Source: Cryobacterium sp.
GTDB taxonomy: Bacteria > Actinomycetota > Actinomycetes > Actinomycetales > Microbacteriaceae
Reading direction: 5' to 3'
DNA length: 64,000 nucleotides
NCBI RefSeq assembly: GCF_026786305.1
Contig: NZ_JAJAYI010000073.1
Coordinates: 17,919 to 81,918 of the forward strand
Part shown: in pieces, positions 2,625 through 8,724 of the stretch
Layout of the letters: each line of letters opens with the position of its first letter
Numbering within the stretch: position 1 is the first letter of the stretch
Position numbers and translations under genes: made by a program
The notes under the pieces: model-generated
Databases searched by the model: none
The model's input: only the letters and a program-made list of their open reading frames with translations
What the model was told of the DNA's origin: nothing

Positions 2625-2696
2625 GGTCGGGGGCCGCCCAGCGCTGGCGTAGCGTTGTCCTATGACCGCGCGCACGAGTCCCGCCGGGGGATGGGA

Positions 2697-3350
2697 ATGA
2701 CAGCGCGCACCGCGTTCGGTTTGGCGCGCCTCGGACTGGCAGCGGGCGGGCTCGTCGCCCTGATCGGCTATTTTCGGTACACCCTCGGTGTGACCACGTT
2801 TGCGATTACCAATTTTTTCAGCTATTTCACGGTGCAGAGCGCCATTGCGTCGGTTTTCGTCTTCGTGACGGCCGCCGTGGTCGCGTTACGACGGCCCACC
2901 GACCCGGCCTGGCTCGACATGTTGCGGGCCATGGTCACGACCTACATTCTGGTCTCTGGCGTCGTCTACGGCATCATCGTCTGGCAATCGTCGGGGGCGA
3001 ACTACTCGATCGAGGTGCCGTGGTCGAGCCAGCTACTGCACTTCGTGATTCCGCTCTGCGCCCTCATCGACTGGATCGTGGACCCGTTCAAGGCCCGCCT
3101 ACCCTGGAAATATCTCGGCTGGGCCATCGTGTTCCCCGTGTTCTGGCTGGTCTTCACGCTCCTTCGCGGACCGATCGTGGGATGGTACCCGTACTTCTTT
3201 CTCGACGCCCGCCAGGTGAGCGGCCCCGGTGAGACCGTGTTCTATTGCCTGATCACTGTGGGAATCATTACCGGCATTGCTTCGCTGCTCACCTGGCTCA
3301 CCCGGATCAGGCGGATGCCGCGCCACCTGCTTGCGCCTTGGCGCGCCTGA
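2697..3350 (+). CDS. Pr6Pr-type six-helix membrane protein
   Basis: A membrane protein of about 217 residues with roughly six hydrophobic helices, matching the actinobacterial Pr6Pr family, whose function is unknown. Family-like features are the FFSYFTVQSAI segment after the first helix, the LLHFVIPLCALIDWIVDP block in the centre and the GWYPYFFLD motif before the last helices. The open frame begins at 2655, but a purine-rich GGGGGATGGGA stretch lies directly before the ATG at 2697, which also begins a normal positively charged N-terminus (MTARTAFGLARLG). It ends one base before the convergent amine oxidase gene. No specific role can be assigned. Confidence 0.8.
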   Translation: MTARTAFGLARLGLAAGGLVALIGYFRYTLGVTTFAITNFFSYFTVQSAIASVFVFVTAAVVALRRPTDPAWLDMLRAMVTTYILVSGVVYGIIVWQSSGANYSIEVPWSSQLLHFVIPLCALIDWIVDPFKARLPWKYLGWAIVFPVFWLVFTLLRGPIVGWYPYFFLDARQVSGPGETVFYCLITVGIITGIASLLTWLTRIRRMPRHLLAPWRA

Positions 3351-3351
3351 G

Positions 3352-4761
3352 CTACTGTTTGGGCTCCGCGAGGAACGGTTCGAGCGCGGTGAGCGCGGCC
3401 GCGAGAAAAGCTTCGTCGTCGAGTTCGGACAGCCGGGTTGCGTTTTCGGCGGCGACCATGCCCAAGAGGACGGGTTCGCCGGTGAGCGGCATCATGTTGA
3501 CCCAGACCGGAAAGTCGGCGTCTTCGCCGACGATGGTCCAGAGGCGGGCCGCGGTATCCCAGAACGGCACGTCGAAGCGCAGCCAGATTTTGTCGACCAG
3601 GCCCATGCCGAGGGCGGCGATGGCACCGCGGTGGGCGAACGGCAGCGCGGGCGAAAACTCGATCGCCGCGTTCTTCAGCACACCAAGCGGCACCGTCACG
3701 ATGACGCGATCGGCCGACAGCGACTCGCCGGTGCCGAGTCGCAGGCTCACACCGCGGTCGTCGTGGGCAACACGGTTGACCACGCTCGAGAGCAGCAGCT
3801 CGAGGCCCTCCGCGTCACTGGTCAGCAGCGTTGCATAGCCGCCGACCACGATCTGGTCGTCGTCGGCGCTCGCGATGTCGGTCGTGTACCAGGCCGATTG
3901 CTGGCTCGGGGTGGCCCCGGTTTCGATCTTTAGCTTCGTGGCGATTTCGTACTCGAGCCAGTCGGCATCCGAGAGGCCGTCGGCGTTCGGGGTTTTCGAG
4001 AGGTTGGCTTCGCCCGAGTCGATCAGCGCACGTTCGACCGAGACGTCCTGCTGCTGGTCGGCAGCCCAGTCGAGGGCACCTGCGACGACCTGCGCGCCGA
4101 GCGGGGACACCGTGACGACGGCACCGGCTCGGGTGCGCACCTCGGGGGTACGCACGAACGGCAACAGCGTCACCCCGAGAGCGGTCAGCTCGTCGTCCAG
4201 AGCAGTGACGGAGCTACGGTGCACGAACGAGGGGCCGCGTTCGATCGGAAAGGGCCAGTCGCCATTGACCGTGTCGATGCGTCCGCCGATGCGGTCGCGG
4301 GCCTCGATGACGAGCACGCTGAAGCCGGCGTCGACGAGTTCGCGCGCGGCGGTGATGCCGGCGATTCCGGCGCCGACGATCGTGATGCGCTCGCCGGGAG
4401 CCGCGACATCCCGCACCTGGCTGGCCGCGAGAAGGCCCGAAGCTCGGGCGCCCTGAACGGTGCCTGGCTCATCGACCGCGGTCGCTTCGCCGGCGAAAAA
4501 TACGCGGGCGTCGACGGCCTGGCCGAGGGCCGCTCGGTGCTCGGGCGTGGCGCCGACGGCGGCGTAGCTGAAGGATCCGCGGGAGAAGGCGTCAGCCGAC
4601 CAGTTGGTGCGGGAGACCGTCACTGGTTGGGGCACCAGCGACGGTGTGAGAGTGGTGGGTGAAGCGGATGTCGTCGGCACCGGCGCCGGCGTCACGCAGG
4701 CCGCGAGGGCCAACACGGAAAAACCCGACGCCGTGCCGAGCAGAAAAGTGCGCCGCTTCAC
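3352..4761 (-). CDS. Flavin amine oxidase family lipoprotein with circularly permuted FAD domain
   Basis: The 469-residue protein starts (GTG) with a twin-arginine signal (KRRTFLLG) and a lipobox LAAC with Cys22, so it is probably exported folded and lipid-anchored. Residues 51-116 carry the block that normally ends a monoamine/polyamine oxidase: NWSADAFSRGSFSYAAVG, then VFFAGEAT, then a GTVQGARASG segment. The normal N-terminal Rossmann block follows at 126-161 (IVGAGIAGITAAREL, then EARDRIGGR), then the substrate domain. The protein stops after a helix, LEPFLAEPKQ, where the family usually continues into the W.ADAFSRG block. It is therefore intact but rearranged. The substrate is unknown; polyamines or aromatic amines are possible. 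It follows the SDR gene on the same strand after 223 bp. Confidence 0.88.
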   Translation of the reverse strand: MKRRTFLLGTASGFSVLALAACVTPAPVPTTSASPTTLTPSLVPQPVTVSRTNWSADAFSRGSFSYAAVGATPEHRAALGQAVDARVFFAGEATAVDEPGTVQGARASGLLAASQVRDVAAPGERITIVGAGIAGITAARELVDAGFSVLVIEARDRIGGRIDTVNGDWPFPIERGPSFVHRSSVTALDDELTALGVTLLPFVRTPEVRTRAGAVVTVSPLGAQVVAGALDWAADQQQDVSVERALIDSGEANLSKTPNADGLSDADWLEYEIATKLKIETGATPSQQSAWYTTDIASADDDQIVVGGYATLLTSDAEGLELLLSSVVNRVAHDDRGVSLRLGTGESLSADRVIVTVPLGVLKNAAIEFSPALPFAHRGAIAALGMGLVDKIWLRFDVPFWDTAARLWTIVGEDADFPVWVNMMPLTGEPVLLGMVAAENATRLSELDDEAFLAAALTALEPFLAEPKQ

Positions 4762-5797: not shown

Positions 5798-7492
5798 TTA
5801 GCGCCCCGCGCCCGAGCCGGTGGTGCTGGGCGGCGACACTGTCAGGAAGCCGTCGGCCAGCAGCTCGCGTACCCTCGGCAGCAGTTCGCCGCTCAGCAAG
5901 GCCTCGTCGGCGTCGAGTAACTGGGCGAGAGCTCCGATGATGGCGCCGACGGCGAGGTCGCCGTCGCAGGCGCCGACCAGCCCGGCCAGAGCGGTGTCGA
6001 GCGAAACCGAACGGCCGAATCCGCTGCCCTGATGCAGGGTCATGAGTGTCGGATCCTGCTGACCTGGCCAGTAGTGGCGTTCTTCGGTGACGTCAGAGGC
6101 CACGGTGAGATTCGTTTGCAACAGGCGCGCGTCATCCGTTTGTGCCTGCCAGTCGTGCGCCGCGAGGCACTCGGCGAGGTGCGCGCCGAGCCCAGCCGGG
6201 TTGTGACCGAGGGCGTCGGGCAACCGTTCGAGGCGGCGCAGGGTGGGTTCGGTGGCGGACGCCACGCTCAGAGTTTCGTCGGGCATTCCTCGGGGCTCTG
6301 CGTCTGTCGGCAGCCGCAGCAGCAGGTAGCCGAACCCGACCCGGCGTACACCGCGCGTCTCGAAGTCGTTCAGCCAGGCGTTGTACAGCCGGTCGAAGTC
6401 GGGGCCGGGGCGGGTGCCGCCGTCGCGAATCCAGGTCTCGGCATACTCACCCGGTGACTGTACCTCACGTTCAATGATCCATGCGTCGAGCGCTGCACGA
6501 GCCGTCGCAGATTCTCCGGCTTCCGGCGTGAGCCAGTGCTCGAGCCGCTCGAAGGCATCCGTTTCGTCGTGGTATTCCCAGTTGCCGAGCAACTGGACGA
6601 CGCCGCCGGGAGTGAGATGATCAGCAGCCCCGCGCACAACGGCCTCGACCAGGGCGTCGCCGACCATCCCTCCGTCGCGATACTCGTAGCTCGGCACCCC
6701 CTCGGCCCGCGGCGTGATCACGAACGGCGGATTCGAAATGATGTGGTCGAACCGCTCCCCGATCACCGGCTCGAACAGGCTACCGAACCGAAATTCGATG
6801 TTGTAGATGTCGTTCAGCTCGGCGTTCAGCGCCGCGAGTTCGAGCGCACGCACCGAGATGTCGGTCGCGACGACGCACTCGGCGTGCCGAGAGGCGTGCA
6901 TGGCCTGAATTCCGCATCCCGTGCCGATGTCGAGCGCGCGCTCCACCGGGGTCGGCATCATGAGTGCGCTGAGGGTGCGCGAGGCGCCGCCGATGCCGAG
7001 AACGTGTGTTTCGCCGAGCGGATGCCCCAGCGCCAACTCCCCCAGGTCGCTCACGATCCACCAGCTGCCGGCCCCGTGGGCGTCGATGAAGCTGTACGGG
7101 CGCAGGTCGACGAGCGGGCACAGGAGCGCATCCGGTGCGGTCACGCCTCTTGCGCCGGCACGTTCGACAGCGGGCGGTCGATCAATTCCATCGACCGCTC
7201 TGACGAGCCCGAGTTGCTCGGCTCCGGCCGCCCCAAGAGCCGGCAACGCGGCATCGAGGTCGGCGCGCGGCACCGCGTCCCCGAGCAGGAACAGCCGGGC
7301 AAGAGTCGCGGCGGGCTCGTTCCGGTCGAGCGTGGTGGCGAGCGCGGCGAGCGCCCGCCGGGCCGGAACCCGCTGATTGCGGCGGAGGGCGGCATCCGCT
7401 TCGATGCCCCACAAGCCGGTCAGGCCGGGAACCGAGAAGTGGGCGGCGGCAAGGTCGGTGCGCAGGCGGGAAATAAGAGTTGCAGAAGTCAC
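5798..7492 (-). CDS. Large class I SAM-dependent methyltransferase (NPPF type)
   Basis: A protein of about 564 residues. An N-terminal alpha-helical region of about 150 residues precedes a Rossmann methyltransferase core with ALDIGTGCGIQAMHASRH, then VATDIS, then the substrate-binding motif ISNPPFVITP. The NPPF motif is shared with PrmC/HemK and RsmC-like enzymes that methylate amide or exocyclic nitrogens. A C-terminal region of about 180 residues follows. This three-part layout resembles an actinobacterial family I know only as DUF7059/DUF7782 methyltransferases. The frame is open to 7897, but that part overlaps the hydroxylase gene in another frame, so the GTG at 7492 (VTSATLISRL) is used. 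The substrate is unknown. Confidence 0.85.
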   Translation of the reverse strand: MTSATLISRLRTDLAAAHFSVPGLTGLWGIEADAALRRNQRVPARRALAALATTLDRNEPAATLARLFLLGDAVPRADLDAALPALGAAGAEQLGLVRAVDGIDRPPAVERAGARGVTAPDALLCPLVDLRPYSFIDAHGAGSWWIVSDLGELALGHPLGETHVLGIGGASRTLSALMMPTPVERALDIGTGCGIQAMHASRHAECVVATDISVRALELAALNAELNDIYNIEFRFGSLFEPVIGERFDHIISNPPFVITPRAEGVPSYEYRDGGMVGDALVEAVVRGAADHLTPGGVVQLLGNWEYHDETDAFERLEHWLTPEAGESATARAALDAWIIEREVQSPGEYAETWIRDGGTRPGPDFDRLYNAWLNDFETRGVRRVGFGYLLLRLPTDAEPRGMPDETLSVASATEPTLRRLERLPDALGHNPAGLGAHLAECLAAHDWQAQTDDARLLQTNLTVASDVTEERHYWPGQQDPTLMTLHQGSGFGRSVSLDTALAGLVGACDGDLAVGAIIGALAQLLDADEALLSGELLPRVRELLADGFLTVSPPSTTGSGAGR

Positions 7493-7527
7493 CCGTCCAT
7501 TCAACTCGATGCGCGGCCGACGCCCCG

Positions 7528-8724
7528 TCACAGCCAGCGCATGGTGAATGCCCGGGCCACGAGCTCGTTGGCCGGTGGCAGCGTGAGCGAGCGCACGAGG
7601 GCGTTGCGAGCGCCAAGCCGCAGGCCGTGCGCCGGCCGGCCCATCTGCATGTTGAATGCTGCCTGCCGGACCGCACGGCGAGCGGCGTCGCGGCGGGTAC
7701 GGTCGTAGTCGGCCAGCACGGATGCCGCCTCCCCCGGCGCCAGCAGCGCCCGCTGCAGCGCCGGCGCGAGTGCAACGGCGTCGAGCCAGCCGAGGTTCAT
7801 GCCCTGCCCGCCGATCGGACTGATCTGGTGTGCCGCGTCGCCGACCAGCACGATGCGGCCGGCGGGCCGCGGCTGAGGCAGCGGCCCGGGGCGCCAATGC
7901 CCCGCGCGCGACGGCCCCTCCCCCAGCGGCTCCGAGTGCATCCGCCCCGCGAGCCTCTGCTGCACGGCGAACGCGCTGGCCGCTCCGAGCGGCTCGGCAA
8001 CCCTCACTCCTGTTCGATGACGGATGAGCGCGGCCAGGTCGGCGCTGTCGGCATTCGCGGCCAGAAAATCGGTCATCGCCACCCAGCGGCGTCGGGCACC
8101 GGGCAGCGGAAACGACTCGACCACCCCGCCGCGCTCGAAATAGAGCACCGCACCGGTGTCGCTCGGTCCGGGGTCGGCGAAGTCACCCATGAGATAGGTT
8201 TCGTGACGGCCGAGCTGCCGCCAGGCAATGCCGGCCGCTTGGCGCACCCCACTGCGCGCACCGTCCGCGCCGATCACATAGCGGGCCTCGATCGGGCCAG
8301 AGTCGGTCGAGAGTTCGACGGCGTCGCCGCGGCACTGAACCCCGGTGACCGTTACGCCGCTGCGATACCGGTCGGGCCGCAACTGCTCGAACCGGCCGAG
8401 CAGCAGGGCCTCCGTCTCGTATTGCGGCAGGGCGACGACGAACGGATACCCCGGCGCAGCCCGCTCGAACGACATCTTCCCGAGCCTCCGGCCGTCGCAG
8501 CGCACCTCCCCCGCGGGAATCCGCACAGCCCGCTCGAGCACGGCGTCGGCGACACCGATACCGGCGAGGGCGCGCAGCAACGGCGGGTGGATACCGATCG
8601 CCCTCGAGCGGAGCGACGGCTGCTCCCGCTGCTCGAGCACCTCGACATCCAGTCCGCCTACGGCCAGCACGCAGGCAAGCATCGTGCCGACCGGACCCCC
8701 GCCGACGATAACGACGTCACGCAT
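7528..8724 (-). CDS. FAD-dependent monooxygenase of the type III PKS cassette (SrsC-like)
   Basis: A 398-residue aromatic-hydroxylase-type flavoprotein. The dinucleotide motif VIVGGGPVGTMLA is at the N-terminus, the DG motif appears as VIGADGARSGVRQ, and the FAD-ribityl motif as GDAAHQISPIGGQGMNLG. In the Streptomyces srsABC cluster the third enzyme is a flavin hydroxylase that converts alkylresorcinols to hydroquinones/quinones, and this gene occupies the equivalent place. Its start overlaps the end of the upstream methyltransferase gene by 8 bp. Assignment to that pathway is from context; the flavoprotein family is certain. Confidence 0.85.
   Translation of the reverse strand: MRDVVIVGGGPVGTMLACVLAVGGLDVEVLEQREQPSLRSRAIGIHPPLLRALAGIGVADAVLERAVRIPAGEVRCDGRRLGKMSFERAAPGYPFVVALPQYETEALLLGRFEQLRPDRYRSGVTVTGVQCRGDAVELSTDSGPIEARYVIGADGARSGVRQAAGIAWRQLGRHETYLMGDFADPGPSDTGAVLYFERGGVVESFPLPGARRRWVAMTDFLAANADSADLAALIRHRTGVRVAEPLGAASAFAVQQRLAGRMHSEPLGEGPSRAGHWRPGPLPQPRPAGRIVLVGDAAHQISPIGGQGMNLGWLDAVALAPALQRALLAPGEAASVLADYDRTRRDAARRAVRQAAFNMQMGRPAHGLRLGARNALVRSLTLPPANELVARAFTMRWL

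Follow-up and report, generated by a model that had tools for sequence, protein, structure and literature searches.

The open reading frame at 4761–3352, on the reverse strand of the 64,000-nucleotide stretch of Cryobacterium sp. DNA analyzed here (the window), is, judged from its sequence, a real and complete circularly permuted flavin amine oxidase (PF01593). The segment that closes canonical amine oxidases stands ahead of the GxGxxG block, as the first-pass annotation of the window had claimed, and this swapped order was confirmed both by alignment to the lysine-specific demethylase LSD2 and by a rotation test against the Pfam model. The swapped order is common to many related bacteria and therefore looks like a real, inherited rearrangement. 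The parts of the gene and its convergent neighbor are listed in Table 1.

Table 1. Layout of the permuted oxidase gene and of the adjacent Pr6Pr gene; positions are those of the window.
Feature	Position	Strand	Remarks
Whole ORF, permuted flavin amine oxidase	3352..4761	-	469 aa, GTG start
Residues 1–22, twin-arginine signal up to lipobox Cys22	4696..4761	-	R3 and R4 in 59/59 rows, Cys22 in 58/59 rows (alignment A2)
Residues 23–43, Pro/Thr/Ser-rich stalk	4633..4695	-	Low model confidence; stalk statistics from 76 loci
Residues 44–117, FAD block closing canonical amine oxidases	4411..4632	-	PF01593 370–442; LSD2 700–773
Residues 118–123, linker between old C- and N-termini	4393..4410	-	5–12 residues, median 7, 80 loci
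Residues 124–464, Rossmann block and substrate domain; chain end just beyond	3370..4392	-	PF01593 1–366; LSD2 337–695
Pr6Pr family membrane protein, convergent neighbor	2655..3350	+	NF038065; tail to tail with the oxidase gene, stops 1 bp apart

The order of the blocks can be followed by the motifs ADAFSRGSFSY (residues 56–66), FFAGEAT (88–94), GTVQGARASG (100–109) and GAGIAG (the GxGxxG motif, 130–135). In its native order, the ORF scored 213.4 bits against PF01593 in two stretches, with a curated cut-off of 19.8. When scanned alone, residues 43–118 matched PF01593 positions 370–442 (59.3 bits) and residues 123–469 matched positions 1–366 (161.2 bits). The rotated sequence, re-ordered in a script, yielded a single unbroken match to positions 1–442 with 231.5 bits, as compared to 213.4 bits for the native order. 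Since the two pieces map to positions 370–442 and 1–366, the protein is complete; nothing is doubled, and the earlier assertion that nothing is missing from the enzyme was borne out. A phmmer search of the PDB sequences aligned residues 124–464 with LSD2 337–695 and residues 43–116 with LSD2 700–773. The stretch DVAAPGERI, named beforehand as the linker, indeed follows the FAD block. In the canonical order of the PF01593 superfamily, the Rossmann block comes first and the FAGEAT block last. The ORF fails this criterion with its pieces 370–442 and then 1–366, and due to this reversal it is classed as a permuted variant and not as an ordinary member of the superfamily. A natural permutation is marked by two pieces of one parent that are swapped without loss and linked at the old termini, and this criterion was fulfilled. 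Among the best 60 phmmer matches, only that to MAO-N (2vvl) had a best stretch spanning the junction (query residues 98–182 on chain positions 12–97). With a profile of the permuted family, no best stretch across the junction was found among the best 60 of 95 PDB matches. Because none of these profile matches did likewise, the 2vvl stretch was interpreted as an alignment that ran on into an N-terminus without relation to the ORF.

A structure was predicted by AlphaFold2 for the native order, with permuted sequences only as input and without templates. The model reached a mean pLDDT of 91.7 and a pTM of 0.87; weak regions were residues 1–40, with block means of 39–59, and one block near residues 291–300, with 73. 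Foldseek gave 533 matches at E ≤ 0.001; among the best 50, LSD2 came first with a TM score of 0.66–0.67 by query length. Foldseek aligns in chain order, and the score is as expected if some 340 of the 469 residues can be aligned in this way. The spatial position of the N-terminal block is a prediction that depends on the confidence of the model. In 59 aligned permuted members (alignment A2), G130, G132, G135, E153, G159-G160-R161 and A90-G91-E92 were invariant. GxGxxG, the glutamate at the end of strand 2 (Glu153), GGR and FAGEAT are taken here to be FAD contacts, and FAD binding is inferred from the conservation of these motifs.

The spread of the permuted order was followed with a junction query (residues 40–183), for which an unbroken match is possible only where the order is permuted. 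In the family sample, 82 of 199 genomes gave some match at E ≤ 1e-10, and at least 62 of the 199 (own genome included) were matched without a break along 107 or more of the 144 residues; this count is a lower bound, at most 20 candidates having been scored per genome. The class sample contained 43 of 394 genomes with some match at E ≤ 1e-14 and 28 unbroken matches of 100 residues or more, with 14 outside the family; two more long matches (G264 and G296) were excluded, each containing a stop. In the phylum sample, 11 of 396 genomes matched at E ≤ 1e-18, all unbroken, six of them outside the class. The three genome samples overlap.

A profile built from permuted members gave at least 583 stretches in named genomes, representing at least 567 relatives, and the best 80 loci were analyzed. 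The permuted order was found in all 80; since the profile scan favored permuted sequences, this is not an unbiased rate. Together with the 62 of 199 family genomes, these loci show that the permutation is conserved, which a homologue search had been proposed to check. The Microbacteriaceae among the best 80 loci comprised Cryobacterium, Microbacterium, Agromyces, Herbiconiux, Agreia, Leifsonia and others. Beyond this family, the loci came from Acidimicrobiia, unplaced Actinomycetota and two Alphaproteobacteria, i.e., a Hyphomicrobiales MAG (L109) and Halocynthiibacter (L117). The closest named relatives in this set were six Cryobacterium proteins with 83–90% identity in the best segment. In the 80 loci, the chain ended a median of 5 residues (range 1–43) after the substrate-domain block. 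When all fetched loci were considered, 157 ORFs held both blocks, 141 in permuted and 16 in canonical order; the latter represent 13 distinct genes, and some permuted genes were likewise counted more than once. A second copy of the FAD block after the substrate domain, named in advance as grounds for refutation, was absent from all 157. An apparent second block in L092 was due to numbering that began in a long open frame upstream, and a single block was seen on inspection.

Other contexts for the gene were also considered. A mobile origin was rejected, no plasmid match being found at E 1e-30; viral contigs contained three relatives, none of them permuted (one, L157, was classed on a weak match of 20 residues). 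A defense system was discarded as well, the sole match being that of a short Rossmann stretch to a desaturase model.

The N-terminus of the oxidase (KRRTFLLGTASGFSVLALAAC) has, in our estimation, the appearance of a Tat lipoprotein signal. It carries a twin-arginine motif and hydrophobic stretch (KRRTFLLG...) and the lipobox LAAC with Cys22. The twin-arginine motif was found by pattern in 78 of the 80 loci and, when L117 was read from an inner start, in 79; it is lacking in L094. For the relatives, start codons were picked with this motif in mind. The pattern for a lipobox-like cysteine was matched by 76 of the 80 loci; L114 has the cysteine in a variant context, and L109, L117 and L094 have none. 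The motif pair described earlier for the new N-terminus is, with these counts, near-universal in the permuted group. The N-termini of L109 and L117 resemble peptidase I signals, and since both have a twin-arginine motif without a lipobox cysteine, these proteins are probably released and not anchored. The stalk after the cysteine (76 loci) had a median length of 29 residues (22–39) and on average 57% Pro/Thr/Ser. Genes for TatC (PF00902, 192.5 bits) and Lgt (PF01790, 218.2 bits) are present in the genome. The twin-arginine pattern was also found in 6 of the 13 distinct canonical-order relatives, and in a seventh, L156, by eye. As Tat-like signals occur in several canonical relatives, export does not explain the permutation. 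The earlier hint that permutation and export go together is thereby weakened. Export, lipidation and catalysis of the permuted oxidase are inferences.

The neighboring Pr6Pr gene matched NF038065 with 128.1 bits, and its product had no Pfam match. A Pr6Pr relative was found in 63 of the 80 named loci, was convergent and near in 61, and had aligned ends within 150 bp in 49. The two exceptions were L087, with the opposite direction, and L081, where it is 5.3 kb distant. Of the 17 loci without it, 14 are not labeled Microbacteriaceae, two (L046 and L059) are short contigs, and the last is L067. In the family sample, Pr6Pr was convergent and no more than 3 kb from the junction segment in 58 of the 62 junction genomes; in G044 it is on a separate contig, and G176, G038 and G012 were outside the best matches compared. 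All 59 genomes with a strong Pr6Pr (best match at E ≤ 1.5e-43) also have the oxidase, while Pr6Pr genes with a weaker match occur widely (in 158 of 199 genomes at E ≤ 1e-15). The other seven window genes tested had matches mainly in Cryobacterium, and elsewhere these were rare and weak. In some loci the reading frames overlap (in L073, Pr6Pr at 7391–8146 and oxidase at 5974–7488). In G025, G102, G076 and G139, a second Pr6Pr relative lies upstream of the permuted oxidase, which is then flanked on both sides.

An alignment of 37 Pr6Pr members contained the invariant residues Asn53, Tyr57, Thr59, Ser62 and His129, among others. ADTRP is described as a human hydrolase of 230 residues with six helices and the activity sites Thr47 and His131 (PMC8123165). 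The idea of Pr6Pr as a hydrolase of AIG1/ADTRP type was not supported by the PF04750 model, which matched 2 of the 37 members with a best E of 0.32, and a Foldseek search with Pr6Pr found nothing in the PDB at E ≤ 0.001. The resemblance to ADTRP is a lead only. Between the oxidase and Pr6Pr genes, neither a structured RNA (fold z-score of 0.63) nor a terminator was found; the nearest terminator-like site is at 3177–3192. Outside Microbacteriaceae, 12 loci were compared, with the near pair L088/L093 set aside. A luciferase-like gene recurred in four of them (only that of L074 was scanned), and a few other genes did so in pairs, one of these being an unscanned gene common to L111 and L113; positions were scattered, and no telling conserved neighbor emerged from these 12 loci. 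Elsewhere in the window, an ORF of 309 aa at 1126–2055 on the reverse strand, without a Pfam or NCBIfam match, adjoins an enolase-superfamily gene at 20–1129.

Lys391 of the ORF was aligned by phmmer with an LSD2 lysine that presumably faces flavin N5. In the permuted alignment, this column holds Lys in 25 of 59 rows; Lys is absent in 34 and replaced by Thr in 23, mainly in Microbacterium, Agromyces and kin, and the split follows lineage to a large extent. The position of an LSD2 aromatic residue is occupied by Glu98 in the ORF and is variable across the permuted family. Since 34 of the 59 rows lack the lysine and Glu98 stands at the aromatic site, classic amine oxidation is unsure. Both features would suit a permuted fold with a function other than amine oxidation, i.e., a lipid or cell-envelope flavoenzyme working with the adjacent Pr6Pr protein, and so would the constant presence in Microbacteriaceae of a membrane-protein partner with invariant Thr and His. 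This reading deserves to be kept in mind, although we consider it the less probable one: Lys391 is kept in the ORF, in all 11 Cryobacterium rows (ORF included) and in all 11 rows outside Microbacteriaceae (alignment A2), the FAD motifs are invariant, and a convergent neighbor is not necessarily a functional partner. With Lys391 retained, the ORF may well be an oxidase, and much of the permuted family may have shifted from classic amine chemistry; both statements derive from aligned residues only.

It is considered likely, on the whole, that the ORF encodes a permuted flavoenzyme of the LSD/polyamine-oxidase superfamily that is exported by Tat, lipidated at Cys22 and amine-oxidizing, with export, lipidation, FAD binding and catalysis being inferred. 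Its C-terminal FAD-binding block stands at the N-terminus, a short linker connects this block to the Rossmann strand, and the chain stops where the substrate domain formerly met the FAD block. The oxidase most likely would fold and load FAD in the cytoplasm, be exported in folded form by Tat and be lipidated at Cys22. The Pro/Thr/Ser-rich stalk would keep it on the outer membrane face, where the tethered oxidase would act on an amine or a related substrate and pass electrons to oxygen. A bolder proposal, for which the odds appear poor, is that of an unnamed, mostly lipid-anchored permuted family of Actinomycetota and Alphaproteobacteria that forms, in Microbacteriaceae, a redox module with Pr6Pr at the membrane, linked to lipids or the envelope, and whose many members without the flavin-facing lysine perform new chemistry.

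To trace the origin of the order, two trees were calculated from re-ordered sequences. One had 114 rows, of which 102 were permuted and 12 canonical; the other had 56 rows, 46 of them permuted and 10 canonical, and did not include the long canonical rows L155 and L165. The free trees needed five (114 rows) and six (56 rows) order changes, and the permuted rows did not all group together; a single origin is therefore not shown. These changes, and the intermixing of permuted and canonical rows at poorly supported forks, would be in line with multiple origins. However, well-supported branches demand one order change only, a single permuted clade could not be excluded (p-AU 0.48, at 1.0 log-likelihood unit), and the linker length (5–12 residues) and the chain end are near-constant in the 80 loci. 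Multiple origins are for these reasons regarded as rather unlikely; one event is favored because the break points are constant, and the permuted order probably arose once. Circular permutation usually proceeds by duplication, fusion and trimming. No intermediate with the FAD block at both ends was present among the 157 ORFs. By inference, a single event would have occurred in a lineage of oxidases often bearing Tat-like signals, through duplication, fusion and then loss of the outer pieces. That a frameshift, a misassembly or fusion to a neighboring gene merely gives an ordinary oxidase a permuted look, the other ground for refutation foreseen by the first-pass annotation, found no supporting point and can practically be dismissed, given an open frame throughout, no part lost or duplicated, and the identical order in independent genomes (all 80 of the named loci analyzed, and 62 of the 199 genomes in the family sample).

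Among known systems, LSD2/KDM1B and LSD1 are closest, being the top phmmer and Foldseek match and having the same FAD motifs, but their block order is canonical. They are nuclear histone demethylases and are not known to have an export signal. Maize polyamine oxidase (1b37) and monoamine oxidase B (1gos) belong to the superfamily of the ORF but likewise have the canonical order. The same genome encodes a canonical paralogue (L150, C32:30273-31598; PF01593 positions 1–443, 258.8 bits) that shares 33% and 39% identity with the two blocks of the ORF; unlike the ORF, it has the usual block order and no twin-arginine motif by pattern. In the open-access literature searched, no flavin amine oxidase with a naturally permuted fold was described; subscription papers were mostly not covered, and priority is not established. 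The term Pr6Pr was not found in the open-access literature searched. FMN-bind1 includes circularly permuted extracytosolic flavoproteins, with the permutation predicted from AlphaFold models (PMC11334425). These resemble the ORF as naturally permuted flavoproteins with an extracytosolic location, which for the ORF is inferred, but they belong to another domain family, are flavinylated and have a displaced helix and not a whole displaced FAD-binding block (PMC11334425).

In the permuted oxidase, a two-domain cofactor enzyme has been cut between the substrate domain and the second FAD segment and rejoined at the old termini, and the product has been retained in two phyla. It is a natural test of the chain breaks that the amine oxidase fold tolerates, and a possible engineering scaffold. 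The flavin amine oxidase superfamily includes human drug targets. The gene is also a warning, since family searches take it for an amine oxidase of the ordinary kind. Its Pr6Pr neighbor, tail to tail with it and closely conserved, offers a handle on the function of the oxidase.
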